A stretch of DNA of 64,000 bases from Nereocystis luetkeana (taxonomy: Eukaryota; Sar; Phaeophyceae; Laminariales; Laminariaceae), in assembly GCA_031213475.1 (NCBI GenBank), contig JARUPZ010000017.1:9685587-9749586 (forward strand), given 5' to 3'. Every line of letters starts with the position of its first letter. Position 1 is the stretch's first letter. This document shows, one piece after another, positions 1,063-64,000 of the stretch. A model generated the notes under the pieces. That model was not told where the DNA came from and did not search any database. It worked only from the letters and a program-made list of their open reading frames with translations. The position numbers and the translations under genes are program-made.

Positions 1063-2278
1063 GCGTGACGATGACAGCAAAACGGCCCATTGCCTCATTT
1101 GGGAGACTGTGCGGATTGGCGCCCGAGTCCCAAAGATAGTGGAAGGAGTCTTTTGCGGTACCGGCGCGTCACCCGTACTGCGTGGCGACACGCTGCTCGT
1201 GGACGGTAGGTATCGCCGGAGTTATGGTTGGAGTATTTCAGCTCCGGTCGCTGTGTTTCGTCGTCCCAAGGCCGCTAGTGGTCGGCTCATCTGACTGCAC
1301 CTACCTGTCGCCGTTTAGGTAGCCATACGACAGTATAATCAAGTCACGAAGAAAAACGTTGAAATAGAGATAGGTGCCTGCCCGGCCGCGATAACAAACA
1401 AATGGCGTCTATACCCATTCTGCCCTGTTGTCCCGAAAACTAAAAACGGTGTTTTTTTCCCCCCTTTTTATTTTGTCCCCAAGTTTTTCTTAATTTTCGT
1501 CTGGTTATGCCTGCCGAGCTCCTGAAAAAGTACAAGTATGCTACTTTCAACGCGAAATATATATTATAGATATACCAGGTATATATTATATATATTGTAT
1601 ATGATATGCGTTTGTATGTTTCTTGAAAAAAACTCCCGAAGGTACTTGATGCTACGCCAGAGCGTATTGCGTGTAAACCTACAGTAGGCTAGAATATGAT
1701 TTTTCTATGACCTTTCGCGGGCGTTTTTAGAACGGGGCTGCGTCGTTTGGTATTTATTCACGTCTGTCTTACCGGCAGCAACAACGACCAGGACAACGAC
1801 CACACCCATACCGATAGCACCAAACAACACCATCAAACAATAGCGACATCAAATGGCAACACCACCAACAACGACCATCGCAAAGAACCGCCGAAACGAA
1901 ACGATCACGATATCGCTACAACCATCAGCGACACCACCGAAATAACTAACACAAACACCAACGAAAACACCAACACCAACACCAACGAAAACTCCACCGC
2001 CAACACCAGCGCCAATGCGACCAACACCTACACCATAAAAAATACCACCACGATCACCACCACCGCCCGACCCCCCCGCCCACCCCTCCCCCACAAAACT
2101 ACCGGCACCAGCAACCCCACCACTGGCACCATCATCAGCGGCATCAGGAACAGCTACAGCGGCGGCCGCTTCACCCAGCAGCCCACCGCTTTCAGCCCAG
2201 CAGCATCAGGATTCGACGGGTGCAACATCAGCGCTGCCCTTACCCGACCAAGGCCAACACGCGCCGGGGGCGCCGCCT
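1063..2278. other. Upstream region of the synthase gene
   Basis: No gene recognised. It holds AT-rich TATATA sequence at 1557-1605, a TACCAGGTA at 1573, and from about 1775 to 2040 an AAC/ACC-rich stretch. From 2039 the exon 1 frame is open. A promoter probably lies here but no element is diagnostic. Confidence 0.4.
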
Positions 2279-7927: not shown

Positions 7928-8220
7928 TAGTGGCTTGGCTCGAAAACTGGTGGCGCGGTTTGCGTAGGGGCTGCTGATCCCGTTGTAATTCCAAGTTGTT
8001 TGTTCCGAAAACAGGGGTGCGGTTTTGCGAAAGGGGTTGGTCGATAGAGGATTGATGGTCCTACTTTAGAGTTCCCAGTAGTTTGCCACGGAAGCGGGAT
8101 GCAGAGTCACGGGTGATCGGACCCCCCCCCCCTCCCCGTTGGACACCCGTTGGACAATGTGGAGACGTTGAATGATGCCGCAAACCCCCCCTACTCTAGG
8201 TACCAGGTATCGACAAAGCT

Positions 8221-12429: not shown

Positions 12430-14600
12430 GACTGCGAATCTCTGGGCCTTTTCATCCTGATTCCAGCCGCACCCCGACCCCACCCGGGGGTATCAATCTG
12501 TTTATATATATATATACCCTGATCCCATGTACCAGGTAGGCAGCAGCGGTCGTCCGCACCCACGAAAAAAGAAGCAACAAAAGCTGAAACCAAAATATAA
12601 GACACTCCCCGGGCAAACATGATCTTCATTTTTTTTAATCCCCCATCCTATTCACCAATCTTCGCCCTTCTTGCTGCTGCTCCCTCCTACGTACGTACTG
12701 GTGCTGTACGAGTAGTCGCACCTCAGATCCGGGGGCACTCGTACGACGAAAACATATAACGCAGGCTCTTCTCCCCCTTCTCTCCGCTGCACGGTACACG
12801 TGCCGACGATATGTCTTGCATTTTTATCGCGAGAAAAATTCACTACCCGTATAGCCTGCCCGTAGCACTTACTTACTTCCGTCCCTCGTCGACTCGGGCC
12901 CGCCTCATACGTTTTGTTTTTTTGTTACTAGATCTTGCTGGATCTTCTCGTGATTTCTTAATGATGATATGTATGTGTATACTCGTATATCTTCCCCAAA
13001 AAATCCAGTGCACGAGATGTGAGTTCGTAGCCATGTCGACGTAGGGACTTCTGGGTACACTACTATATATCAGCTACCGTATGTATGCTCCTCCAATCGG
13101 TACTATCATTATATACGTAACGGCAAACCGGCTCTACTCTGCACACTGCAACATGCAACACACTCGTTCATCCCGTCTGGTGCCAAGCGATTTCACAGGC
13201 GGGCAGCCGCCGCTACTCTCAGCCGGCTCTATAGAGGGGCCACTATAACTATTATACTGGTACTGTTTAATAAAAAACTAAAAGAGTACGTCAGGTGTGA
13301 ATTCAACCGATCGGCAGATCGATCGATACTCAACTTTGCAAGCTGCGTGAACCGTTCACGCGTTTTCCATTATCTCCCTAGCGATTGACTACCATTATTG
13401 GCCGGTACTCCCCTGGATGCTACCAGGGTCGACGAGACGATAATACTTGTACCATTTCGTACACTGAAACAGCAGATCGACACGCGAAGGTCGGGGTACA
13501 CAAGACAATCGAAAGCTGGTTTACAACACAGACAGTTTGAACGTGACGGGCACACCAACACCGTGAAAATTTGTAGTGTGGGTGTCTGACCTGTCGATGT
13601 GTGTGGTGTATGTATGTGGTACTGCTGTATGTAGTATAATGAATATGTGTCCAGGACTCCATCATAAAACAATTAAATCGTTTTCAATCGAGCGCCCGCG
13701 TCCACGGCGTCAGCCGAAACCCTCGGTGGCTGCTGCCTGCTGAAGGCATAAAACGTATCAAACACGCCTACGTGAACCTATACAATGGGGGGGGGGGGAG
13801 GGGTCCTTAGGGCACGTCACCGCAGCACGCCCGCTGCCCTCCCCTCTCCCTCTCGGGAAATACGCGGTGTAATCGGTAGCTTTTCGGACGAACCGTTCCC
13901 GATTATGCCGCACATTCTACCGTTACACCCACGTCACCAGATGTGCGTTGTCGGCGGTCGGCGGTCGCAATGTTGCAATCGTGATACATGTAAGAATATG
14001 TGACATACACGTACCAGGTACGGCACGTATCAGATCAGGCGCCCAGGCTTGCCATCAGGCCGTGCCACATCGGTCTTGTCCGACTTCAACGGAAAGATTG
14101 TCATACAGCAGTGTAACGATACACGGGAGGGTGTGTGTGATGGAGTCGAAGGCTGAGGCGAAGAGCCCTTGCGGCCCAGGGGTGGAAGATCTGACGATGG
14201 CCGCGAAAGGCTTGCGGCACGCTGACGCACCCGAGGTATGACAGACAGGTCCCTCACCTTGTACCTGGTGCGAGTCGTACCGGATACTTGTACTCGTAGG
14301 CATGACATCTCGTTGAATGTGCGAATCGCTCTGTTTCGTAGATACGGCGGACTGCTGCTGTCTGTATACAAAGCGACCTGGGAAACTGCACGACGAGGAG
14401 TTAGCTCTCTAGGGAGAAGAGAATCAGTACGGAACGAAAACGTTCTACTGCTGCAGGCGTCATCCCTGCATGGAAATAAAGACCGGCCCTGCAACGGGCA
14501 CAAACAAAGAGGAGATCACGGTCTGACCAGTTGGATTACCACCCCCCTACACAAACTACAATCAGCGCGTACATAATATATATGATACACAGTGGGCGCT
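12430..14600. other. Intron 2 sequence without recognised coding exon
   Basis: Apart from an R8 copy I see no repeat family or splice-bounded exon. A 157-codon minus-strand frame (14030-14503) and an overlapping plus frame exist but show no recognisable motif. Confidence 0.4.
13120..13260 (+). repeat. R8 copy
   Basis: GCACACTGCAACATG, CCAAGCGATTTCACAGGC and AGAGGGGCCACTATAACT match the copy at 5370. Confidence 0.45.
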
Positions 14601-16190: not shown

Positions 16191-17389
16191 TGAGTTAGGG
16201 GGCACCTGTGTACTGGTACACGGTACGGTGGCTCCTCGTTCGCTTATTCCTCTACCTTAATATCTTTGCGACGTCTGGTGTTCTCCGCCTTTCTCAAAGT
16301 CTGTGGCCGCAGACTTTGTGCGAGAATCTCTCTGTGGGACAAAGAATCAGGACGGACGCTGAGTTCCTGATATATCCCACCGAGCACCTGAACCCTCTTC
16401 TCGCCCCTCTCTCCTCTATTGTCTTTTCTCGCGAAGAAGGCTACGTATAAAGAGTACATAATGCCGAATGCAGATGGAGCCGCCCAACCTGAAGGTCCGC
16501 CAAGTATCTGGACCTCTCCTTGCCTTGCCTCTCCTCTCTTTTGTTTTGTTACGCGCAGAGACGTAGATTTGTCCCACCAAGCGCGCCTGACCCCAGATGT
16601 ATCCTCCCTCCTCTCTACGTATGCCCCAGAGCGTCGCGCCCGCTAGACCAGACTTAGCAACAACATCGCATCCAAATCTAGATACACGGCTGTTTTATCG
16701 CTCATAAGCCGGACGCACCACCACTATGCCCTTGACTTGTTATGTGCTGCACCTGGCGCCGTGCTCGTTCGAGTTCATTGGTAGTATTCGTGCTCGTGGG
16801 CGACGGTGTTGTTGCTTCTGTAGCATGGCTTGTCGCGAGTGAGTTCGTCCGAGTTTCATGCCGCGAATGTTAAGGGATAATCTCTGAAACATGAAACACG
16901 CTTTCCCACGCAAATACACGCTTCTACCGTACGTGTAATAGTCATGGCAGTTCGTGCGTAGTGTGGAACACGCCCATCGTTCCAAAGTATGACGCGGTTG
17001 CGCTGTACCAGGTAGCTTGTAGGAAACACGCCTCTTCCCAAGTACCAAGCGCTTCGGGCTGAAATGTAAGGAACCTTGGGTCATGCATATGGAGACGAAA
17101 CGTTTATTATATTCCCGGCCAGCGTGGTATCGCTCAGCCGTGATGAAGCTACTGCAGCTTAGCTCCCACCTATGAAGGGTACGTAAGTATATTTACGTCG
17201 TGTATATTATAAAATTAAAAAACAACAGCTATGAATATGTACTCCCATGTCGTGTATTCTGTTCGCCCTTCTGTTATACAGTGTATACTTCGTACATCTT
17301 TATAAAATAACAGCAATGGATATAAACGTTTACGCCGTTTGTTATGTCCGCCCCTTCTGTTCTCCCTTCTTCAATACGATAGCTGTAAC

Positions 17390-17762: not shown

Positions 17763-18064
17763 TAGTAGGCGCTCTCAGCAGTAGATCCTGTTGTTTCATT
17801 AATTTCTTGTCGCCTACCTGGTATAGAACTAAACAAAAACTGACACGCGTGGGGTTTGACCTCAACCGCCAACAACTCTCGGTATTGATAGCGTTCGTTC
17901 CCGCCGGCATCGACTCAACAGGTAGAGATCCGTTCCCACCCGAGACGCGGTCATTCCGAAGCGAACGTGGTACATACCCTTTCCCACGTAAGATTCTGCT
18001 GTGCTGATGTTGTGAGAAGTGCCAAGCAAACCTTTGCCCACGTGAGACGCGGTATTCACTCAAC

Positions 18065-23559: not shown

Positions 23560-25280
23560 GCCGTCCGGCAGACGTGCAGTCATGGGTGTAGCTTTAAAGT
23601 CGACGACTCACAAAAACCGAGCGCTGTTGCTATTTTTTTTCGTTTGACATCCGACGATGTGCAGCATGAGCTTCAACGTTCATCACCTTTAAAAAATATA
23701 TATATATATTTGTATATATATGTACTTCGAAGTATATATATGTATGTATATTCCCCGAAAAAAGAAGAAAACCAAGGAAGATATATATAAAAAAGGAAAC
23801 CTACCTGCTATGCCCGACGTCTCACTCCCTTCCGTACCTTACTCCCTGCTCGATTGACCGAGCTATTTTTGTTATTTGTTACTTGTTATCGTTGTGCTTC
23901 CCTTTCGTCAATCCGCAGCATGACCTTCAGTGCCTAAGCAACTGATTGGCGTGTTGGTATTTTTTCGCGACGATTAAAACACACGTCGGGCCAAAAACGC
24001 GCCACGTCAGATGCAAACACGCAGAACCTCCGCAAAGAACCGCACGCGACTACCCTGCCAACAAGTAACTATTAATAGTCACTGTATCAACCAGCCAACT
24101 TATATCTAGTTGTTGTAATGCCTAGCCAACTACACCAACTAGTCTGTCTCTGCATCGTCCAGCCAACTAGTGGGTGGTCGCCGTGATACCCAGCCGAATA
24201 CTACCTAGTTGCTACAATGCCGAGCAGAAACAACTACTCAGTCGCTGTAAAACCTAACCAACACCCAACTAGTCGCTGCTATACCTAGGCAACTAATAAC
24301 CAGTCGGCGGCGACCTATAGTCAGCCAACTCTCAATCCTACCCAAGGGGAGTAAACGGCGACGGACACCCCCCGGAACGAATATCCGAGCCGAGTTTTTC
24401 AAGTAGTACCAGGGTAGTAGAATGTCTTTGGAAATATCTGGACAGGATGTGCACGCTCCCGGTCTTCGAGAAATTCAGCTTGGGAAAACCGTTCGAGATG
24501 GTGTGTTGTCGTGTCGCTCGTGTGGTTCGACACATAGGCGGGGGAGCTATGTTCTCGCAACACGACGGATCCGACTCGCACGGGCATTCTACAATCGGTT
24601 CGAGCGGGAGATCAGAAAACGAAATGATGGATCGGGTGACTAGGTTTTGGTTCGACTAGCCCTAGAATTCTAGCGGTTTTCGTTTGTTTCTTATTCGGTT
24701 GTTCGATTGGGGGGGGGGGGAGGGGCGACAGCGGCAGTACTGATACTTGACACCGCTAGTGACGAGAGTAGGAAGGAGACGGCAAAGGGTGTGGCTCAAG
24801 TGAGTTACAGGTAATTGGGTGAGGTACAGAGTTCCTACACTAAAATCAAGTGACTTATACGTGCTACGTACCTCCGTAGGGCAAACACGCGTCGAAAAAA
24901 AAAGAAGGGAGTTGGACTTCGCGCATACGTAGGGTTTCCTTTTTTTTTACTTCGTTTTGGTTAGTTTTCCCTTTTTGTTGTTGCTCCTTTCGGACATTGT
25001 TTATGTTAGGGTCAACGTTGAAGCCCATGCTATAAACATCGTCGGGCGGTGAAACGCAAATGTTATCAACTGCATGGACAGCGTCGCCGATTGTCCGCCA
25101 GGAGCCGACCCGACCCGACTCTTGCCGTGTTTTTTTTTTTTTTCTCTCTTTTTTCCTTGTTGTTCGTTTCTGTGTATTTTCTACTATTCCGGGGCGTCAT
25201 AGAAATGCATACCTGGTACCAGGTACCAGGTATTGATCATAGCTCACAACGGGCCCAAAACCCATGCACCCCCCTATTTT
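23560..25280. other. Intron 3 body
   Basis: AT-rich TATATA block at 23695-23790, then repeated ACTAGTCGCT / CAGCCAACT motifs at 24060-24340. A frame at 24447-24659 ends SENEMMDRVTRFWFD and looks protein-like but has no homology I recognise. Confidence 0.4.
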
Positions 25281-25620
25281 TACACACCATAAACATTTAA
25301 TATTTTTTCCCCATCCCCTTCTTCTATCTTCGCACGTCTTTTTCTCTCTCCTTCCTATTACGGGGGACCATAGCAAATAGGGCCTACCTTATACACGAAA
25401 AACTATGTATTTACCTATTTTACCCACAATGTTTGGTCCTATTTACTATGTTCCCCCGTGTAATAGACGTAACTCTGATCCGGGGTCGCATATCAATAGC
25501 AGTCTGTATTCCCCCTTCATCACTACGGTTCGTGCCTTGGAAAGCATTTTTATCGCTATTAAAAGGAGACTCCTGCCCTTGACGCCCTCGTCGACTGGCA
25601 TCGAATAACGCCTACCAGGT
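25280..25620 (+). repeat. R7 copy carrying MITE1 copy 10
   Basis: TCTATCTTCGCACGTCTTTT, MITE1, then GTAACTCTGATCCGGGGTCG ... TCACTACGGTTCGTGCCTTG; the same order is found without the MITE at 62300-62412. Confidence 0.55.
25358..25463. mobile_element. MITE1 copy 10
   Basis: TTACGGGGGACCATAGCAAA ... TTACTATGTTCCCCCGTGTAA; inserted in an R7 repeat copy about 220 bp before exon 4. Confidence 0.8.
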
Positions 25621-25684
25621 ACCTGGCACTTGGGTCTGATTTCTGTTGTCCCCCGTGATTTGCACTCCTCGCAACTTTCAACAG

Positions 25685-26830: not shown

Positions 26831-27271
26831 GGAGAGGGGGGGTGACAAACCGACACACATGGACTGGGGATATATCCTGGATGCGGCGTTATGGGGCAAA
26901 ACGTGAGGGTAGATTTGCACAGTATCAGGCACCTATTGCCTGGTATGCCGTATGTGAGAAAGTTATCCTCAGAGTAGAAAAAGTTAGATCGAGTGTAGGG
27001 CGGAGGCTGGTGAGTGGACCCCGACGTAAATCGCGCACGCTAAAAACGTGCCAGGCACCTGGTACTTTACACGTATGGCTTCCTCGGTTTGTTTTCCTGT
27101 GTAAGAGAGGTACTCGCCCTCTTGACTACGTGCGCACGCGTGTCGTATGCATTACCTGGTATGAGTTTATTTTCAGTTGGGCAATGTCGAAGGACACACG
27201 TCATTAAAAACACACCAGGCAGGAGGATGGCCACATGTTTGCTATCGAACCGAGTCCAACGGCATTTGGCC

Positions 27272-27472: not shown

Positions 27473-27679
27473 AACACCACCATCTGATCCTGATAAAGAC
27501 GGATGCATAAAGCCAAATTCCAACATAAGCTACAGCATCATATACCCGAATACTGAATAACAGGAGGAGTGATTTACCAAGGTCGTGAACTGAATTCCAG
27601 GGGAGCTGCTCGTCGCGTGCCCGAGACAACAGCCACGCACAGCGGACCTAACGCCGCTGCAGGCTTGTTGACTTGGCTA

Positions 27680-27807
27680 TTAGGGGGGCGACCATAGTTA
27701 ATAGGACCTACCTGGTACCAGGTATGGTATACATAAAAACCTACCAGGTATATATTTAACCATTTTCACTAACAATATTTGGTCCTATTAACTATGGTCC
27801 CCCGTAA
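27680..27807. mobile_element. MITE1 copy 11 with two scar insertions
   Basis: Ends TTAGGGGGGCGACCATAGTT and TTAACTATGGTCCCCCGTAA. The interior carries CCTGGTACCAGGTA after GACCTA and CCAGGTA after AACCTA; deleting both restores the consensus exactly. Confidence 0.85.
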
Positions 27808-27829
27808 CATTAGACAAGACAACTTTCCC

Positions 27830-29230
27830 CGGACTCCATATTCCAAGAGAATCCACAGCAGAGTGCATCATAGTAACCCTTTACTTGACGTTCAGGACAC
27901 GCGTCCGAACCTCACTTCGAACGTTCACGTTTTTTTTTTTTAAAACAGAAACGCTTGCGAGACGTGCGCCCCTCAAAACATGTGGCTTCCTTTGGTTCCC
28001 CCACAGGTATACAAAAACTTATTTGAAACAAAACGGTTAGGTCCAGGTGCGGCCGTATGCGATGTCGTTACGCCATAACAGCATACTACCGGCAACACAG
28101 AGGCGTAACGGCGTATGTATCTGTCGTTGTACAGAGTAGCACTTGACAGGTGTTTTGTTTTTTTTCCCCCCGGGCATAACTCGGACAGAACGTTACGTGC
28201 AGGCATCGAATCAGGCGAAGAGGTCACCGTGACTATACGCAGGATGGAGTAGCTCTTGGGCCGAACGGAGGTTCAGGGTGTGCAGCAGTGTACCTGGTAC
28301 GCTAATAAGGTTATCCCTTTCAGGACTGCAGTCCCGTTTTGGGGACAAACTACTTGGGATTAGAGTGGATTGTCCCCAAAACGGGACTGCGGTAGGTACC
28401 AAAAGCGAGTCGGCGAGACAGGCTCCAAAACTGAAAAGGTCATAAGGTTTCATGTTTCATATTATACTCCTGGATAGATCGCCAATCCCTACGAGTAAAT
28501 TCGCACGTATGTACTCGTAGATCTTTCGGGGGCAGATATTTCTGGATATATTCCTGGGATCCTTGTGATCTACCAAGTGGTAGTTAATAATATGATGCCG
28601 CGGTGGAAGTAGGATAATCTGCATGGTCTAGCACGTACCACATGGTTCCTGGGTTGGATCTGTACCACAATTATATACATGTCCTACGCAGCATCCCATG
28701 ACGGCAGGTTAAATAGGATCCAGATCATATCATACGCAGAATAGGCGAATGGGTAGATCGCGATCTGTCCAACATGGGAAGATGCGTGAAAGGTTTCAAA
28801 CGGCCACTCGTCAGAGCGCGCAAGGATCATGATTTATTTTTTCAAATGAATGGTTGCAGGCTACCAGATACGAAGTACATACCGTTCCAGCATATTTTAC
28901 TCGCCGCGGTGTATTCTGCTGATGGCGACCTCGAAGACGATGGCAGCTCGAGCTGCGAGCTGGGCACATACGACACCCCCCCCCTCCAAGCAACAACCAC
29001 GCGGCGAAGCAACCCAAACGAGATCTGGATCTAATAAATGCCCCAAATGTAGACGCCTCGCAAGGTTTTGGAAACCCTTTCAATTTTTAATTCCACCGCA
29101 TCCGCGCGGTGTCCCGATGTGCCGTGTGCTTGTTTCCGTGAGCACGGTGTACGGTGTACGCTGGGAAACACTTTGACGCTGGAATGGCGTGCGGGTGGGG
29201 AATGACAACCGCTGGAGCCTTTTTGTCGCT
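27830..29230. other. Intron 4 middle
   Basis: A SINE-A-like T-arm remnant at 27890-27960 (CGTCCGAACCTCACTTCGAA), a TTAA palindrome at 28311, then GATC-rich sequence. A plus frame 28774-29034 shows no recognised motif. Confidence 0.4.
28311..28394. mobile_element. TTAA palindrome (R2), right end truncated
   Basis: TTATCCCTTTCAGGACTGCA ... ACGGGACTGCGGTAG; the AAAAGGGTTAA end is missing. Confidence 0.7.
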
Positions 29231-30356: not shown

Positions 30357-30661
30357 TAGAGCTGCTGCTCGAAGGCCTACGAGGTGTATCTCTTCGCATA
30401 CTGCTGTTGTACCAGGTAGATCGTGCAGCAGGAGGTATATCACAGCAGTGGACAATTACCTGGTACAGGGTAGGTCGTGCGTTGTACCAGGTACATCTGT
30501 AACCCCGCCCCCCCCGCTCCCCCTCCCCCCTCCCACCCTTATCGAAAGGGATGCGTGGTCAATGGTGAAATGGCTACGGCGAGCAACAAATGAGTACGCC
30601 CCCCCCCCCCCCCCCCCCCCCCCCCCCGCGCGCTTCTCCGTCGCCCTCCTTGCTTTTTCAG

Positions 30662-32913: not shown

Positions 32914-34400
32914 GTGAGTTCATGGTTTTGTTTTTTACGCGATAAATTAGTCGGGCCTTTTTAATGTTCACAGTCTAAAATTTTAGTAGTACAGTGCATG
33001 TACATGTAAAAAATGCTCTTATTTCACACCATTTGCAATACTTCGCCAGTGATCGCGGGTCGTTTTTCGCACTCTCTCCTGCGGAGCATACAGGAGGGGG
33101 CGCGGGTACACTATGGCGCAAGTTTGGGTCTCAGCCGGGCTGCTCGGTGGCGCGTGCCCTGCGCATCCCGATCCGCTCGCGCTGTTTTTTGTTTTTCAAG
33201 GAATTGCTGTCCGCCCTGCTGAGCCAAGCAGGCCCATGAAAACCCCTAGAATACGTAAAATGATATTTTCATCTTCTTGAAATCATTTTTTTGCTTCTTG
33301 TTTTTTTGCTCTGCCGAAGTTTCTGAGGTACCACGGGAGCCCTCGAAGGTCAGACAGCCACGGTGTAATATCGGCCGCTTTTCCCTTTGTGACAGCCACG
33401 AACGATGCTTTCGTGTGTGCGTGTGCGTGAGCGTGTGCCATCGTAGGGTCCCCACCAGGGGAGCAGCAGGAATCAGAAACACAGTCAGTCCCACAAAGAG
33501 AGAGGTGAAGTTTCAGTTTTCTTTCTTCTCTGTTTAGGTTTGTCCTCCTTTGCTGTGCTGCTTGCTGCTCCTGGGAACCTGTTTCACACCGCAAGCGCTT
33601 TTTACGTCGTGGCAGCCATGGTATAGCATCAGCCGTACTTCAAGATGTGTGTGTGTGTGTGTTTTTTGAGACAGCTACGAATGGTGCTTGTGTGCGTGCG
33701 TGCTTCTTTGTGTGCGTGTATGCAATCCTGAGCACAAGCTGTTCGATTCCAACCCACGGTTCCTCTGGGTTTCGAAGACACTGGGTTTCGAAGACACCCG
33801 CGCAGCACAGAAGCGGTGCAATGACAACGACAGCGGCAACAACAGCAGCAGCAACGGTGTAACAGCAGCGAGCAAAGCCCCACAGAGTATCAATTACACT
33901 GGATTGCCTGCTGTGTTCTCTCTCCCTTTTCAACTTGCAACACCCCCGGGGTTTGGAGTCGTCAATCACATCCCGAAGGAGAACCTTGCACGCCCAGGCT
34001 ACATCAGTTATACCAGGTAAATATTATCAAGGCCACGGTTAGCTTTGACTCGCCTAACAACAATATGCTCCTATCATAGCGTGTCCGACGATGCTGCTGC
34101 TGCTGCTGATGCTGCTGCTGCTACTGCTGCTGCGCTGTATCGCGCATGTAGGATACCACTCTGTCCGGAAGTGCATGGGGCCTGTGGGTACAGTATCCAT
34201 ACGAACCCAGGCTGGGCTAGCATCCCTGTTTTTCACTGTTTGTTTCGTCTCTCTCTCGATCTCCCTCTCCACCCCTCCACCCCTCACCTCCTCTCTCTCT
34301 ACCTCCCCCCCCCCCCCGTCTGTCTCTCTCTGTCTTCCTCCGTCTCCTTGTCTGTCCGTTACTGTCTCCGTGTTTTGGTCGGTGCTACTAGTGGTGGTAG

Positions 34401-34471: not shown

Positions 34472-34724
34472 GTAAGCAAGACCTACTGCCTCTGTACTAT
34501 TTTGGTAGTGATAGACCCACTGCTATACCAGGGTAGTAATAAGCATAGCTACGCACTACAGTACCAGTAAACTTCTACGGTATGAACATTAGCTATTTAT
34601 CCTACGGGGTATGTTCTACTACTGCGTGCTATTTGTAGAGCTGCTGCTACACCATCCGAATTACAGGCAGCAGTAGCCCCACTGCTGTAGTTTTATTGGT
34701 ATGCACCAGGCCAAGACACCGGCA

Positions 34725-35260: not shown

Positions 35261-35975
35261 GCAAGTCCGCATGTTTCATCACGCGTATCCCTGTTGGAAC
35301 TGCACTAACTGTGTCATACATATACGTAAACATATACCTGGTACTTCGTATTATACCAAGTACATTACTGCAATTCAGAGTGTTTTATTGTCCACAACAC
35401 GGGCGTGCGGTTCTTAAGGCCTAAAAGGGTTAACCTTAGTTTTTTTTCCCAAACGGCCGCAGGATTAAAAAAAAAAACTCTCGTGCTGCCGCGGTGCGGT
35501 GTGCTGTAGTTTGGTTTGGTTAAGGTGAAGGTGAAGTATGCTTCGCTTTGCTACCGAGTGTTTTTGTTTAGGTACATTCACAACTGATGCGTGTGCGAGC
35601 TGCTTTGACAGACTGAAAGGTGGAAGCTCGAAACTCAGGTCATAGATTGCGTATGGGAAGTGTTTTTATGAATAGGCTTAGGTTTACGTCAGCTATGAGT
35701 TTTTCACCGATGAAACTAACCTTTGTTTTTTTTTTCTCTGATTTAGGTTGGTTCGATGTGGTTTCCAGTTTGCAATCACATCGGCTGCGAGATAGGCCGA
35801 TCGAACAGTCAGACCGCAGCTTTGCAACCTTTTTGTGATCCGATTGGTTTGCCTCCCAAATCCCCTTCCGCGCTCCCTTCTTCTCTCTCGCTGTCGCTCT
35901 TCCCTCGCACCGCTGTGCCGCATGGTACCCGTTCGAACGGTGGGCATTTTATGTTCCACTTTTCTGGGAGCACAG

Positions 35976-37170: not shown

Positions 37171-37243
37171 TACCGGGGAACATAGTAACAGTCAGACCTT
37201 AATATGGTCTCACTGAAAATAGCTACCAGGGTATATAATATCA
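37171..37243. mobile_element. MITE1 relic
   Basis: TTACCGGGGAACATAGTAAC and a few further consensus bases, followed by a MITE2-like end at 37244. Highly diverged. Confidence 0.4.
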
Positions 37244-38135: not shown

Positions 38136-39242
38136 GTGGGGGGATACTATCGCAGCTCCCTGCCCGTGAAAGCCCGTTATTGTTTTCATTTGAGTTTTGA
38201 GCGAGGGTACCAGGAATAGTGCCCAAAACAAATACCCCGATGAATACGTGTATACCTGGTATATTATAGATATATAATAGGGCAGATGCCCAAATCAGGT
38301 ATACCTGATCCGTTTTAGCCAAAATCAGGTACGTGCTAAACTCGAGTAAAAAACGCGCGCCACGGGCGGTGTTGTGTCGTTCATGAAAATCCGGCAAAAA
38401 ATAAAAGCGCCTAAAGCATTAAGCGTGCCACATGGCTTCCAAAATCTGAATTGTTTTGTTTTCTTTAGGGCGTAGGCACCACGGGCTCCCCTTGGCTTAC
38501 CTGCAGAGAGTCAGTATTGATAGGCTTAGTACTGTCGTTTGTTTCGCCACGACGGGAACGCCAAGAGTGTATACTCTGGCGCCCCCCCCCCCCCCCCCCA
38601 AGATCTGAGGCCACCTCGACGCGGGGTGGCGCAGACGAATGCCGTGTGACCATGGTGCTGCATGGGCTGCTGTGACCAAAAGAAAAACCCATCAGAGTAC
38701 ACGTGACACAACAGCTATCTGAAGCAAGAACATCGCACACACCGAAGAAGAAGAGGTGAAAAAAACTGCGTACGCAAGTATGCAAGTATAAATGAGTACT
38801 TTTTACGTACGACGTACGAGTGTTTGAGAGTGAATACAGAAGAATTTCAACCGAGGGAGGGCAGACGCATACGGAGAAGAAAAAAACAGTGTACGTATAT
38901 ATGGCTTCTCCGGTTGGTTCAAAGTTGGCAAAAATCTGTTGAAAGCTGGACATACAGTAGTAGTCTAAGTCAGGTATCCCTTGGCCTTTTCGAGCCAACA
39001 TCAGCTACCTGGTACGATGTTATGTAGCCTGGCCGGTAGAAGGACTCCTGGGGTGTGTTTTGTACTTGCTTATAGCATGTAACTGATTTTGGCTGAAAGT
39101 GGCCAGGAATACCTGATTTTGGCCAAAACCCTATATAGTGTATACCTGGTACATGGTTTAGTAATATATACCCTATATATACCTGGTACCAGGTATATAA
39201 TATATATATATATATATGTATATATCTACCAGGTGTAATATG

Positions 39243-40344: not shown

Positions 40345-41620
40345 ACCACTCTGCCCCTAGATGTAAGAAACGTTTGTGCATTACTATGCAATCAAAAAGG
40401 TCCTTACATTTCGGATACTATTTCGGACAATCTGTCCCGAAATGTAAGCACCGTTTGCATAGGAATAATAAATCTATACGTTTTTTATATTTATTTCTTT
40501 ATATTCAGGACACTCTGCCCCTCACCATAATGATCACTTGCATATTAAGAGCTAGTCCACACGTTCCTGCTGATTCGGACACTCTAACCCGAAGTTTAAG
40601 GATCTTGTGTATAATTTCTTTGATAAAAACGGTCCTTGTATTCGGGACATATTTTGACCCGAGATATAAGGATCGTTTGTGTAGTAACCTTTATTCGAAA
40701 CGGTCCCCATTTTTAGGGACAAGGTTTGCCCCGAAATTTAAGGACCGTGCGTAGATCAATCTTCAATCGAAACGGCCCCCATATTTAGGGGCATAATGTC
40801 TGAAATATAAGGACAGTTTGTATAGGAATACTTCATCCCCACGTTCCTTATATGTCGGCCCGAAATAGAAATATCATTTGTATAGGAACATTTAATCCAC
40901 ACGCTTCTTATATTTCAGGCACTCTGACCCGAAATTTTGGGACCGTTTGTATGTGAATACTTCATCCAAACATTCTTTATATTTAGGGACATAGTTTGAA
41001 CCGAAATATAAAGACTGTTTGTACGTTAGTCTTTAATGAAAACATTCCTTTTGTTTAGGGACATATTTTGACCCGAAGTATAAGGACCGTTTGTATTTTT
41101 AATCTTCAATCTAAACGGTCCTTATTATTGAGGGACATAATTTGACCCGAACTTCAAAGATCGTTTATATGTTAATGTTCATTCTAACGGCCCTCATATT
41201 TGGGGACATGCTCCGACCCGCCAAATAAGGAACGTTTGTAGATTAATAATTATAGTAGTTAAGTTTGCTCCTAGATATAATGGATCGTTTATACGAGAAT
41301 AGTAATACCTGGTACCCAAGTATGAGCCTAAATATGATGATCGCTTATATAGGAATACTTTATCCAAACAGTCATCGCATTTAGTGACATAGATTGACCC
41401 GAAATAGAAGGATTGTTTGTACATTATTCTCTAATCGAAACGTTCCTTATATTGAGGGGCATTGGCGTCTGAAATATAAGGACTGTTTGTATGTGAATCT
41501 TTAACCAAAATTTTCCTTTTATTTAGGGACATGCTTTGACCCGAAACTTACGAACTGCTTGTATGTTAATACTTCATCGAAACAGTCATTACATTTAGGG
41601 ACGTGGTTTGACCCAGGACG
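40345..41620. repeat. Tandem array of MITE2-derived units
   Basis: About 17 diverged units of roughly 72-78 bp, each with GGACATAxTTTGACCCGAAA, then TATAAGGACCGTTTGTAT and ...AACGGTCCTTATATTTAGGG. The unit matches the terminal and subterminal sequence of MITE2 (CACTCTGxCCCxxAATATAAGGACCGTTT). Fills a third of intron 10. Confidence 0.7.
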
Positions 41621-44735: not shown

Positions 44736-45714
44736 TGTGGAGAAGTTTGGTGCACCGTAAAAATAGTAAATAGGTACCAGGTACGTGGTCGCGAGATCAC
44801 GATCGCTCTCCTAGGAGATAGATGGTGGCCGCAGGTGGCGTAACAGGGAGGGGGAAATCAAGCAAAGTCTCTGTGTACGAGTACTAGTACGGTATATAGG
44901 AAAAAACGTAATGGGCGCCAAAATGTTGGAGGCGTTTCCATCAGGAGTGGGCGGGGTGCTCCGTCTCGACAGGGATGCGTGAGGTCAATGGTGAAGTGAC
45001 TTAAGGCAAGCAACTGAATGAGTACGCCTCATACGCCTCATGACGAGGACGTTCTCTGCATGTAGTATACCTGGTAGGCATGACGGCCTCTTCATGCCGA
45101 AGGGCGTAGGTACAGGCTTCCTTTATTCAATTGGTTTGTTTGTTGCTCTCTCGTTACCACCCCCCCCAAAAAAGTATGATTGCGACAGCTGTTTCTATGT
45201 GGGGCCTATTTACACAAACTCGGTGTCTACGGAAGCGGGCGAGCGAGCTTGGGCTAAAACGCGTTTGACTTGTGTTCGTGGCATACCGTCTCGAGTCTCG
45301 AGGTGCTTGAAGTCGCCGGGTCTGCTGTAGGTTTGGTGGCGTGTTCCGAGTGGGGCGGAAAAGCATGTACCTGGTAGTTGTTCTTTTCGTTCGTATTTCT
45401 TCGATTGGGTAGAAAGCTAGGCTCAATCTTATCGGAGAGCTTTTTTTTTCCCATTATTCCCAAAGTTTGGAAATATTTGGAGATATGTATCAATATACGT
45501 AGGCGTTCTGTCACTATTCGTGAAATTCTCCAGAAGCATGAAGATTAAGTTCGTTAAATTTCACATATTTGGAAAAAAAATCAGCGCACACGGCCTGCTG
45601 CAGGTGTGCGGCCGCCTCGCCTCATTTCCCCCTCTACTACTGCAGCACGACTACGACCATGCATGACACGAGAAACCCCCGCCCCCCCCCCCCCCCCCCC
45701 CTCCCGCCGTGCAG

Positions 45715-52030: not shown

Positions 52031-52142
52031 TTACGGGGGACCATAGTAAGTAGGACCAAATTTTGTGCGTAAGAAATGGTAAATATATACCTGGTAGGTT
52101 TTTGTGTTTACCGTAGGTCCTATTTACTATGGTCCCCCGTAA
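52031..52142. mobile_element. MITE1 copy 15 with one scar insertion
   Basis: TTACGGGGGACCATAGTAAG ... TTACTATGGTCCCCCGTAA. Interior AAATATATACCTGGTAGGTT differs from copies 2 and 3 by an extra CCTGGTA. It abuts a 70-bp foldback (51952-52024). Confidence 0.85.
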
Positions 52143-55051: not shown

Positions 55052-56696
55052 CACTATTAATAGACGCACGGACGTGCCTGAAGAGTCAATGAATGCGCCC
55101 GAGGCGTGCCTGAAACCTTGCAGTATCCTATACTACGAGTATGTATGTTCATTTGTTCTCCCCGAATTCGGAAAATAAATAATTACGGACTTGACGTGTA
55201 ATATTTTTCGTGTGCCCGAAGACGGAAAGTAAATAATTACCTCTATTTCCAGTACGAAATGATTAAAGTGAAACCGAGGTGGTCAATTTATTTCATTGTT
55301 TTGTTTCACTTGATTTTTAAACTATACGCCGCAGGAGCATCTCCCGATCCCAAAAAATAATCAATTTCCCAAAAAAATCAGGACTCAAAAAAGAGGACCT
55401 TTAACAATCTGGGAAAAGGGATCTTTAGCTTGGTAGGCTGTTCGGATGTTTTGGTTCCTGTTGGGATCAAGGTACGGGCGAAGACCCAACTCAACCCCTG
55501 ACTCTAACCCTAACCCTCACCCTAACCGCAGCCAAAACGGGCCAAAACTCGCCATAAACGCGGCTACGCCGAGTGTGCATCGAACCAGGAAATTTCTCAG
55601 ATAGATGCGGACGACGATTCCGAAGTGCAGACCACGCTACACATTTTTCAAGTAAAAAACATCCCTAAAGATCCCTTGTCCCAGACTGCTAAACCTACTC
55701 ACTCAAAATCGGCTCATATGGCCCTTATATCTTCACAATTTTTTCGTTTTTTTTTCTTTCAAGGGGTGAAAAAATAGTGTTTTCCGCTTGCTGCCACGAC
55801 AAGATAGGCACGAAAACAACAGTAGTAGTAGTGATTCAGGCGCGTTCGTACGTGTGTTTCAGCAGAGGTAAGTTCAGGCGTGGTGTGCAGGCATGCACAT
55901 CTCTGTCTGTGACCCGACATTAGACGTCGGCTTTCCCCTGTGATTCTGGGAGTTCCGCACTGGCGGCGTTATGTTTTAGTGCCCGCAAGTGCCTTTGGGC
56001 GTGCCTGGCGCGTGCTTGGCGAAAGATAGTATAAGCGAGAGATACCACGAGAGAGAACTACTACTACTACTGCAGGACTTCAGGCACACGCTTGTTTCAG
56101 AAAAGGCGGTGGCTCAGGCTTTTTTTCAGTGTTGAAGGCTATATATAGGGCCTAAACAGGGGATTCCAGTTCGGAAATTTAACTTTCTTCCCGATGATCA
56201 CTCGTCCTGAAACCGTTACTCGTATACAATATACCTGGTACCTGCTGGTACATAAAATGTACCGATTTTCTTTCTCTGGTCGTTGAGCTTTTCTTTTTTT
56301 TTGGGCTGTATAGACGTGATTTTTCTCGACGGCTGGTGGGCCTTTCGTTTTTATCATAGACACAAAGTCGTCGGATATGACCTTATTGCTCTATGACATC
56401 ACCCCCCAACCGAACGTCTCGAACGCCTCCTCAGGCGAAACCTGTATATCCGGTAATGTTAGTAATTTCCCATCCAACTTTGTGTGCGAGTATGTAGCCT
56501 TAGTGTTAACAACCGAGAGCTAAAGACAACGAACGGGAAAATCCGGACTACTACTTACTACGACAAAAGGAAAAAGAAAAAAGAAGGCAAACGATGTGTT
56601 TCCAACAAGAAAACATACGAAAAACATCACGGCCTTTTAAACACCATTACCAGGTACCAGGTATATAACAACATGAATACCGGGTGGCCAGTGTTA

Positions 56697-62414: not shown

Positions 62415-62538
62415 AGTTAATACCTGGTAGGACCTACGTATGGTACACATAAAACCTACCTGGTATATATTTACCCATTTTTACTAACAACATTCGGTCC
62501 TAACAGGTACCAGTGGTATTAACTATGGTCCCCTGTAA
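62415..62538. mobile_element. MITE1 copy 19, 5'-incomplete, with several scar insertions
   Basis: Begins inside the left TIR (AGTTAATA), ends TTAACTATGGTCCCCTGTAA. Extra blocks CCTGGTA, CGTA, CCTGGTA and ACAGGTACCAGTGGTA sit after TA dinucleotides of the consensus. Confidence 0.75.
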
Positions 62539-62824
62539 TACCTGGTACAACAACAGCAGATGTATCCTTGCAAGAGTTTTTTTTTTTTTTTTGTGAGGGC
62601 AACTACGAGTACTACTGTACAGCGAGCAGCAGATATTTTCTTAAAATGTAAGCCCATCCAACGAGTGCGCATAGTGGGCGTGTCTGTTCTGTTGAAAACC
62701 GAGTCAGTCCACAGCCGAAGTCCTCGTGTACGTGTACGACTACAATAATACTAAAATTACAATGCATTTGGTTTTTGACGTCTGTTTTTTTGCTTTGCTT
62801 CGTCGTCTGTTTTCTTCATCCTGT

Positions 62825-63110: not shown

Positions 63111-64000
63111 AACAAACACTAACCCCCCGGTACACGTAAACAAACAAAAAACAAACACTAGCCCCCCGGTACACGCACACTACAAAAATATAGCTGGTAC
63201 TACTGTAGCTCACAGCATTGACGTCATTTAGAGCATATATTCGTATGGTACCTCACCACGACGTGGCGCTGGAGCTACTTACAGCTGTACTATCAACGGT
63301 TTTATGAGCGTACCAGGTACGGTCTGTATCTGCCATGACCGAATCTTACCAGGATCAACAGAGTCAATACCTACCACGACCAAGGTGTTAGACCACTCGG
63401 TCAACCTTTTTACTTGAAGCTTGACCAAACGATACAATATGGTTGTAAGCTGGAACACGTAAACCAGGTACCAGGTTTCGTACAAGGTCCAAAAGGCATT
63501 GCCTTTGACTAGACCCAAGGTTTTGGAGCCGTTTACAACCCTTTAGTTGAAGCTGGACGAAAGGATGAAGGTAGCCACTCACTGCAACACGAAAATGGTG
63601 GAGTCGGCTCCTCTGGAGGGCGACGGAATGTGACTAGACCACGTAAATTGTCAAGCCAGGTGCTCGCGAGGGCGACGTTGCCGGTAATTATTGGTAGTTC
63701 GATATTTTCCTGGATATTTCGATAGACTCGTGCAGGTGCCAAGCATGATCGATTTTCGACTGTTACTAATAATAATATCTCTTATTTTATACCTGGCTAT
63801 ATGTGTTTGCGCTCGTTGCATTTTGTGAAACTTTCATTCAACAAGTAAGTATCGGAACTACTCCGGATTATACTTGATATTTATACACCTCGTGTATCTC
63901 GTAGTTGTTGGGTCTATCGAACGCGGACCTCGGGCCATGATGTGGCTCAGCAGCAGCTGCTGCATGCTCGCACATCGGTATGGTATGCCAACAATTTTCG
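63111..64000. other. Unassigned sequence upstream of the spondin exons
   Basis: The missing N-terminal spondin exon(s) should lie here or beyond. I found a good minus-strand donor (GTAAGT at 63275) with a short phase-0 frame, but its peptide does not resemble Spondin_N. A plus-strand donor at 63845 is also unassigned. Confidence 0.3.

Follow-up and report, generated by a model that had tools for sequence, protein, structure and literature searches.

The window, by which we mean the whole stretch of DNA that was analysed, comprises 64,000 nucleotides of contig 17 of the Nereocystis luetkeana genome (465 Mb, 1,987 contigs). Counts beyond it were made genome-wide or in a 264-kb sample, consisting of the window and 200 kb of C1 and C17. 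Five open reading frames of the window matched no Pfam family, and 110 of the 185 listed frames scanned against Pfam yielded retrotransposon domains, NADAR and one BCD1. A NADAR domain was found beside a retrotransposon RNase H frame (L016:6242-7834), and such domains are mentioned in Gypsy elements of Ectocarpus in a passage of the brown algal transposon survey PMC12477816. Contig 1 starts with TTAGGG-type telomere repeats. The EsV-1-7 family gave 1,714 first-look candidates in the genome, and all 150 that were scored matched. A passage of the same survey describes this domain as expanded in brown algae and known elsewhere chiefly from giant viruses (PMC12477816), which points to a brown algal host.

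The repeat MITE1 (consensus of about 111 bases, ends CTATTACGGGGGACCATAG) occupies 44 places in the 264-kb sample, 20 of them in the window, and eight copies carry the word TACCWGGTA. The region 27706-27748 holds three such sites in one MITE1 copy, arranged as a stack of two and a single site. The features are as follows; a strand is given where one was assigned, and the basis is the motif count unless another is named.

1573..1581, putative footprint
8201..8209, putative footprint
12530..12538, putative footprint
14012..14020, putative footprint
17006..17014, putative footprint
17815..17823, putative footprint
24407..24416, + strand, putative slip-type footprint TACCAGGGTA (class tested genome-wide)
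25210..25232, putative three-footprint stack
25613..25621, putative footprint
27153..27161, putative footprint
27677..27813, + strand, MITE1 copy (copy 11 of an earlier, sequence-only reading), host of three putative footprints (MITE1 alignment)
27709..27724, putative two-footprint stack TACCTGGTACCAGGTA, a 14-base insertion at TA (empty-site paralog 87.9%)
27742..27750, putative footprint TACCAGGTA (empty-site paralog 83.9%)
28291..28299, putative footprint
30410..30418, putative footprint
30457..30465, putative footprint
30485..30493, putative footprint
34011..34019, putative footprint
34526..34535, + strand, putative slip-type footprint TACCAGGGTA (class tested genome-wide)
35335..35343, putative footprint
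37224..37233, + strand, putative slip-type footprint TACCAGGGTA (class tested genome-wide)
38253..38261, putative footprint
39006..39014, putative footprint
39143..39151, putative footprint
39180..39195, putative two-footprint stack
41306..41314, putative footprint
44775..44783, putative footprint
45068..45076, putative footprint
45368..45376, putative footprint
52088..52096, putative footprint in a MITE1 copy (perhaps copy 15 of that reading, a guess)
56232..56240, putative footprint
56648..56663, putative two-footprint stack
62421..62429, putative footprint in a MITE1 copy (perhaps copy 19 of that reading, a guess; MITE1 alignment)
62457..62465, putative footprint in the same MITE1 copy as 62421..62429 (MITE1 alignment)
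62539..62547, putative footprint
63311..63319, putative footprint

A derived seven-base gain at TA

TACCWGGTA occurs at 37 sites in 32 arrays of the window, against a mean of 0.44 and a maximum of 2 in 100 shuffles. The sequence-only reading had claimed about thirty sites where chance predicts about 0.5; the motif observation holds and is larger than was reported. Sites were found at all ten coordinates which that reading named, with positions off by 0 to 5 bases. Its proposed genome-wide check returned 182,395 exact copies versus 1,744 of the reversed word, an excess of about 100-fold and a density of approximately one per 2.5 kb. The C/G-centred version was nearly absent in the 264-kb sample (3 sites versus 130 with W). 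The W alone proves nothing, since a CCAGG footprint reads as its reverse complement, CCTGG, on the opposite strand.

The ancestral state was examined using empty-site queries, in which both flanks of a scar were joined and searched against the same 264 kb, with paralogs required to reach 30 bases on either side. Among 117 sites tested, 41 had a paralog of any identity and 19 an empty-site paralog at 80% identity or more; three of the 19 were 14-base stacks (best 97.9%), and one was a visibly poor alignment. As a control, 987 other TANNNNNTA words gave 276 with a paralog and 15 with an empty site. In a stricter test, confined to paralogs of at least 80% identity, the motif was matched by an empty site in 16 of 39 cases, compared with 1 of 38 for TACGTA, 1 of 27 for TATATA, 0 of 23 for TACWGTA and 2 of 13 for TACGAGTA. 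The empty-site paralogs indicate that the motif is derived, with TA having become TA-CCWGG-TA; the insert is CCWGGTA, gained at TA in paralogous repeats. Other words of the form TA-X-TA were considered as further scar types and rejected: empty sites numbered 0 of 23 for TACAGTA, 0 of 7 for TACTCGATA and 0 of 9 for TACAGCAGTA. The pair TACGAGTA/TACTCGTA occurred 53 times versus 3 for the reversed word in 264 kb, yet it had no more than the 2 of 13 empty sites given above; it is possibly a second, weaker footprint type.

The MITE1 copies were aligned using MAFFT, and the alignment took in 38 copies, including seven of the eight motif carriers. In pairwise alignments with other copies, the 27709 stack and the sites at 27742 and 52088 each had a gap-free empty site. 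At 52088..52096, the gap-free empty-site paralog (87.0%) reads CA in place of TA, and another (85.7%) has TA. The expectation that the indels would measure multiples of seven bases was borne out against the consensus in three of seven copies; two showed 8 or 13 bases, and two were ambiguous. With seven bases, the insert is not itself a MITE in the sense of a short element with inverted ends.

Stacking, also part of the sequence-only reading, was found in 11 of 118 arrays, whereas 0.9-1.9 would be expected if new insertions chose TA at random; this excess indicates that insertion sites were used again. A stacked motif in nine viral contigs was taken as chance. The 264-kb sample contained 130 exact sites (control 1), 118 with one substitution (control 30) and 584 with two (control 504), such that, after subtraction of the control, the one-substitution class was about two thirds the exact class. 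The scars look like products of a long, near-steady accumulation that decay by point mutation.

CCWGG is a known methylase target, and a dispersed functional palindrome, maintained by selection as a binding or methylation site, would be an explanation of another kind. The empty-site paralogs, the stacks and the size of the one-substitution class all argue against it as the principal cause, and we consider it barely plausible. The excess and the derived state in repeat copies support instead the sequence-only reading, which saw no binding site but a scar that recurs at TA in either orientation and which named no source for it. Neither of the outcomes that would have refuted that reading was observed.

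Target preference and the proposed excision reaction

The flanks showed a preference that is symmetric about the TA, with A/T at -8 and -7, A at -6 and non-T at -1 (chi2 with 3 df: 30, 88, 83 and 32, respectively; 114 unique sites, one copy per distinct flank, read from both sides). This two-sided, TA-centred preference resembles the site choice of a transposase. The scars thus share with Tc1/mariner footprints a TA-centred target preference in the flanks, a duplicated TA flanking a few bases and a derived insertion. A flank score built on the preference gave 0.92 for scars (in-sample), -0.96 for background and a near-background -0.48 for TACCWGG words that lack the following TA and are not one change from a scar. 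The unrelated word TAGGWCC averaged 0.62, and 30% of its occurrences exceeded 2, a result probably due to its location in MITE1 ends; as it outscored the TACCWGG words without TA, the score is not specific and was rejected as a finder of element ends.

TACCWGGTA is very probably a footprint left by the excision of a cut-and-paste DNA transposon working like Tc1/mariner, and we infer the cleavage chemistry, the five-base overhang length and the ligation as follows. The element would insert at a preferred TA and duplicate it. On exit, the transposase would cut the 3' strand at the element tip and would cleave the 5' strand five bases further in, thereby leaving each flank with a 5-nt 3' overhang, 5'-CCAGG. 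The two overhangs could pair at four of five positions with a central A:A mismatch, and ligation would produce TA-CCAGG-TA, which reads TA-CCTGG-TA on the other strand. A four-base overhang (CCAG) with one base filled in could be an alternative route to CCWGG; a five-base overhang would be the simpler reading. Overhangs of 3 nt joined end to end would be expected to yield CCATGG, which showed no excess in the 264 kb (2 versus 2).

The model makes a directional prediction. A one-base slip, or one further base kept from the other end, would yield CCAGGG (reverse complement CCCTGG); CCTGG overhangs would instead yield CCTGGG (reverse complement CCCAGG), and plain slippage in the G run would yield both ten-letter forms equally. 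The excision products expected are therefore TACCAGGTA/TACCTGGTA, plus a few per cent of TACCAGGGTA/TACCCTGGTA. In the 264-kb sample, the CCAGGG type was found seven times and the CCCAGG type once. The test was set down before the genome-wide counts, of which the sample that suggested it is a negligible part. Genome-wide, TACCAGGGTA occurred 11,422 times (reversed control 409), part of which comes from copied repeats, and TACCCAGGTA 1,578 times (control 362); once the controls are subtracted, the CCAGGG form outnumbers the other 9 to 1. Seven listed TACCAGGGTA sites at G000:C1:1305185-1308362 have an exact 528-base spacing and are tandem-repeat-like.

An enzyme that writes CCWGG and the duplicated TA directly, with no mobile parent, would account for the lack of a certain parent beside 182,395 scars. 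The symmetric TA preference and the CCAGGG/CCCAGG asymmetry, however, follow from two inverted overhangs, and a steady state needs few parents; direct writing is accordingly judged quite improbable.

The search for the parent element

A scan of the 264 kb for elements of up to 6 kb with exact TACCWGG ends revealed no parent whose inverted ends match. Seven pairs passed a pairing of terminal inverted repeats (TIRs): one was a 334-base inverted repeat with scars, and the rest were judged chance or AT-rich. The former (L019:9156-9489) has arms alike in 159 of 160 bases and stacked scars on each. A 14-base match shared after TACCAGG (CCAGGAAAAAACAA) was judged chance. Short TACCAGG...CCTGGTA remnants numbered 98, compared with 296 for a control word, which itself forms part of MITE1 ends; of the 50 remnant places listed, many terminate in TACCAGGGTA or in scars with a T-to-C change. 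Searches with DDE_3 and Transposase_1 returned nothing and are weak negatives, as Transposase_1 was silent in control genomes too and the candidate described below has mariner-like motifs.

Two transposase groups were rejected as the parent. The Pogo-like DDE_1 genes (28 matches, 10 loci read) had no TIR with CCAGG and are probably host or decayed genes. Near-identical DDE_1 gene pieces were observed at L029 and L031 on C1, and L031 stops at CCAGGTA beside a shared GTACAGTGG. Among the DDE_Tnp_4 transposons (57 matches, 10 loci read), the family that was read carries a scar inside and is a target instead; in this recent, Harbinger-like family (L039-L048), one TACCAGGTA scar is common to 10 of 10 copies read. 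This shared scar also bears on a ciliate-like programmed somatic elimination of TA-flanked germline segments, which would suit one dominant scar form, TA flanks and missing parents. The same scar at the same place in all ten copies, together with the existence of one-substitution scars, indicates that scars are inherited through the germline, whereas ciliate-type scars arise anew in somatic nuclei only; somatic elimination is thus scarcely credible here.

The best parent candidate is a low-copy mariner-type family with a copy on C20, which we hold, at slightly better than an even chance, to be the source of the scars. A profile search with HTH_Tnp_Tc3_2 (E up to 0.1) gave at least 27 matches in the genome, and all match counts are lower bounds. 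In-frame stops were present in 14 (13 on C29 and a weak one on C1); the other 13 are dispersed and stop-free, with open frames of 194-613 residues. The thirteen C29 matches (G000:C29:3890863-5049588), mostly 179-aa frames with one TAG each, recur every 82-104 kb, except for a single 201-kb gap; the first five are on the + strand and the remaining eight on the - strand, and the series looks like a giant tandem array inverted in the middle. The C20 copy has an uninterrupted frame of 434 residues from the first Met. Its HTH match (E 2.1e-7, 31.6 bits) lies just above the cut-off of 31.5, and its match to Mos1 is weak (E 0.033). The protein contains VDEKWFF, QQDNAPAH and PPNSPDTNILDLGFF, which we take, reading by eye, to be mariner-like motifs; its catalytic triad, likewise read by eye, is presumably D179, D300 and D335, the second and third of which are separated by 34 residues. 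By this reading, the C20 element has the HTH and the D-D-D/E triad of a Tc1/mariner transposase. No relative of this transposase was confirmed in viral and genome collections.

The left edge of the C20 element reads TA|CCAGG|AGTCCGAC, and the sequence upstream of the frame is gtatgata-TA-CCAGG-AGTCCGACAAAAAATATAACC. A copy on C24 equals C20 in 166 of 166 bases from AGTCCGAC inward (the extent read), and its upstream sequence is unrelated; because the identity ends at the TACCAGG boundary, this is a true element edge. The C24 edge itself is TA-CTGGT-AGTCC, with CTGGT at the same distance from TA, and a third edge, C1:12541, is TA-C-ACTCC in a copy that differs at a few inner positions. Five bases thus separate TA from AGTCC in two of the three edges read in the family, and CCAGG is present at one. 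Scored for the scar preference against background half-sites, the flanks of the three TAs fell in the top 5.2% (C20), 25% and 17%. The copy at C1:3120 has an inverted 5' region in place of the edge (96 of 97 bases); head-to-head inverted 5' regions were observed in candidate-transposase copies at L060 (C1:3120800-3121050) and G000:C14:10945627-10946161. The left edge of the C20 element alone was read; the right end lies more than about 2.5 kb away from it.

The same mechanism may have been driven by another TA-targeting parent with CCAGG ends, extinct or too rare, with the C20 junction being coincidental. This reading, which is somewhat short of an even chance, gains from the lack of CCAGG at two of the three edges, from the lack of a TIR pair in the 264 kb and from the C20 end: the 20-letter TACCAGGAGTCCGACAAAAA occurs exactly once in the genome, and its 59 occurrences with up to three mismatches are not far above the control of 33. 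Against this, the densities of TACCAGG (3.4e-4 per strand-base) and TACCAGGA (2.7e-5) are so low that a chance abutment at the first boundary read is unlikely.

Low copy number of the parent is compatible with the abundance of scars. A constant input with point-mutation decay reproduces the exact and one-substitution counts if it lasted for about 0.22 substitutions per site. At assumed mutation rates between 4e-10 and 5e-9 per site and generation, each haploid genome would need to fix 8e-4 to 1e-2 excisions per generation, a total of about 419,000; these figures are arithmetic on assumptions and are inflated by scars that were copied within other transposons. A few wandering elements could be enough for all scars, because scars pile up with each hop while copy number stays low, and this estimate agrees with the finding of no parent in 264 kb.

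Relation to known footprints and implications

TACCWGGTA is most likely the scar of a cut-and-paste element that leaves TA, and hardly any element capable of making it was detected. According to passages of PMC7827188, Sleeping Beauty/mariner transposases nick three nucleotides inside the element and generate 3-nt 3' overhangs, to which the footprints are identical. The alga's scar would share the duplicated TA and, by inference, a footprint that equals the 3' overhang of the element tip and is end-joined; it differs in its five bases and in its 182,395 exact copies in one genome. By analogy, it would be a five-base version of that reaction. Tc1/mariner footprints are given as 2-4 bp in a passage of PMC7913693, a range that is descriptive and no definition and that the five bases exceed.

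Stowaway/Osmar5 excision in grasses leaves varied TIR fragments of 1-4 bp next to TA duplications, with several footprint forms at one locus, according to passages of PMC1925063, whereas one form dominates genome-wide in the alga. A rice study resembles the present one in its genome-scale view of excision products; in passages of that source, 8 of 94 excisions were perfect (PMC4423477), while the countable products of the alga are mostly one identical 7-base gain, a uniformity that holds for products keeping both TAs, as a word count cannot detect those that lost one. In Ectocarpus, Mariner-Tc1 comprises 17 families with one autonomous copy of 4.4 kb, and most copies are non-autonomous miniatures, as stated in passages of PMC12477816; in the alga, no miniature with CCAGG ends was found. 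Neither "excision" nor "footprint" occurs anywhere in this survey's main text. No earlier description of the scar was apparent by title among the matches listed, in literature outside subscription and preprints, and searches for the motif letters gave unrelated titles among the matches listed. The kind of footprint is itself known; the novelty is the longer, near-complementary overhang and the extraordinary number.

A fuller picture, to which we give an even chance, is that of a brown algal mariner whose five-base overhangs are four-fifths self-complementary: a low-copy nomad that made several hundred thousand hops over about 0.2 substitutions per site, mostly repaired alike, with its itinerary written as 7-base scars and its ends maybe selected for clean healing by the host. 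Excision footprints are few and varied in the compared studies, and about 182,000 are identical in this genome. If the reading is true, the scars record the cut site of the transposase and the outcome of host end-joining, including the minor one-base-slip product, and their decay records hop frequency over evolutionary time. A transposon could then leave abundant marks in a genome from which it is itself nearly missing, and annotation of repeats by copies would be expected to miss this.
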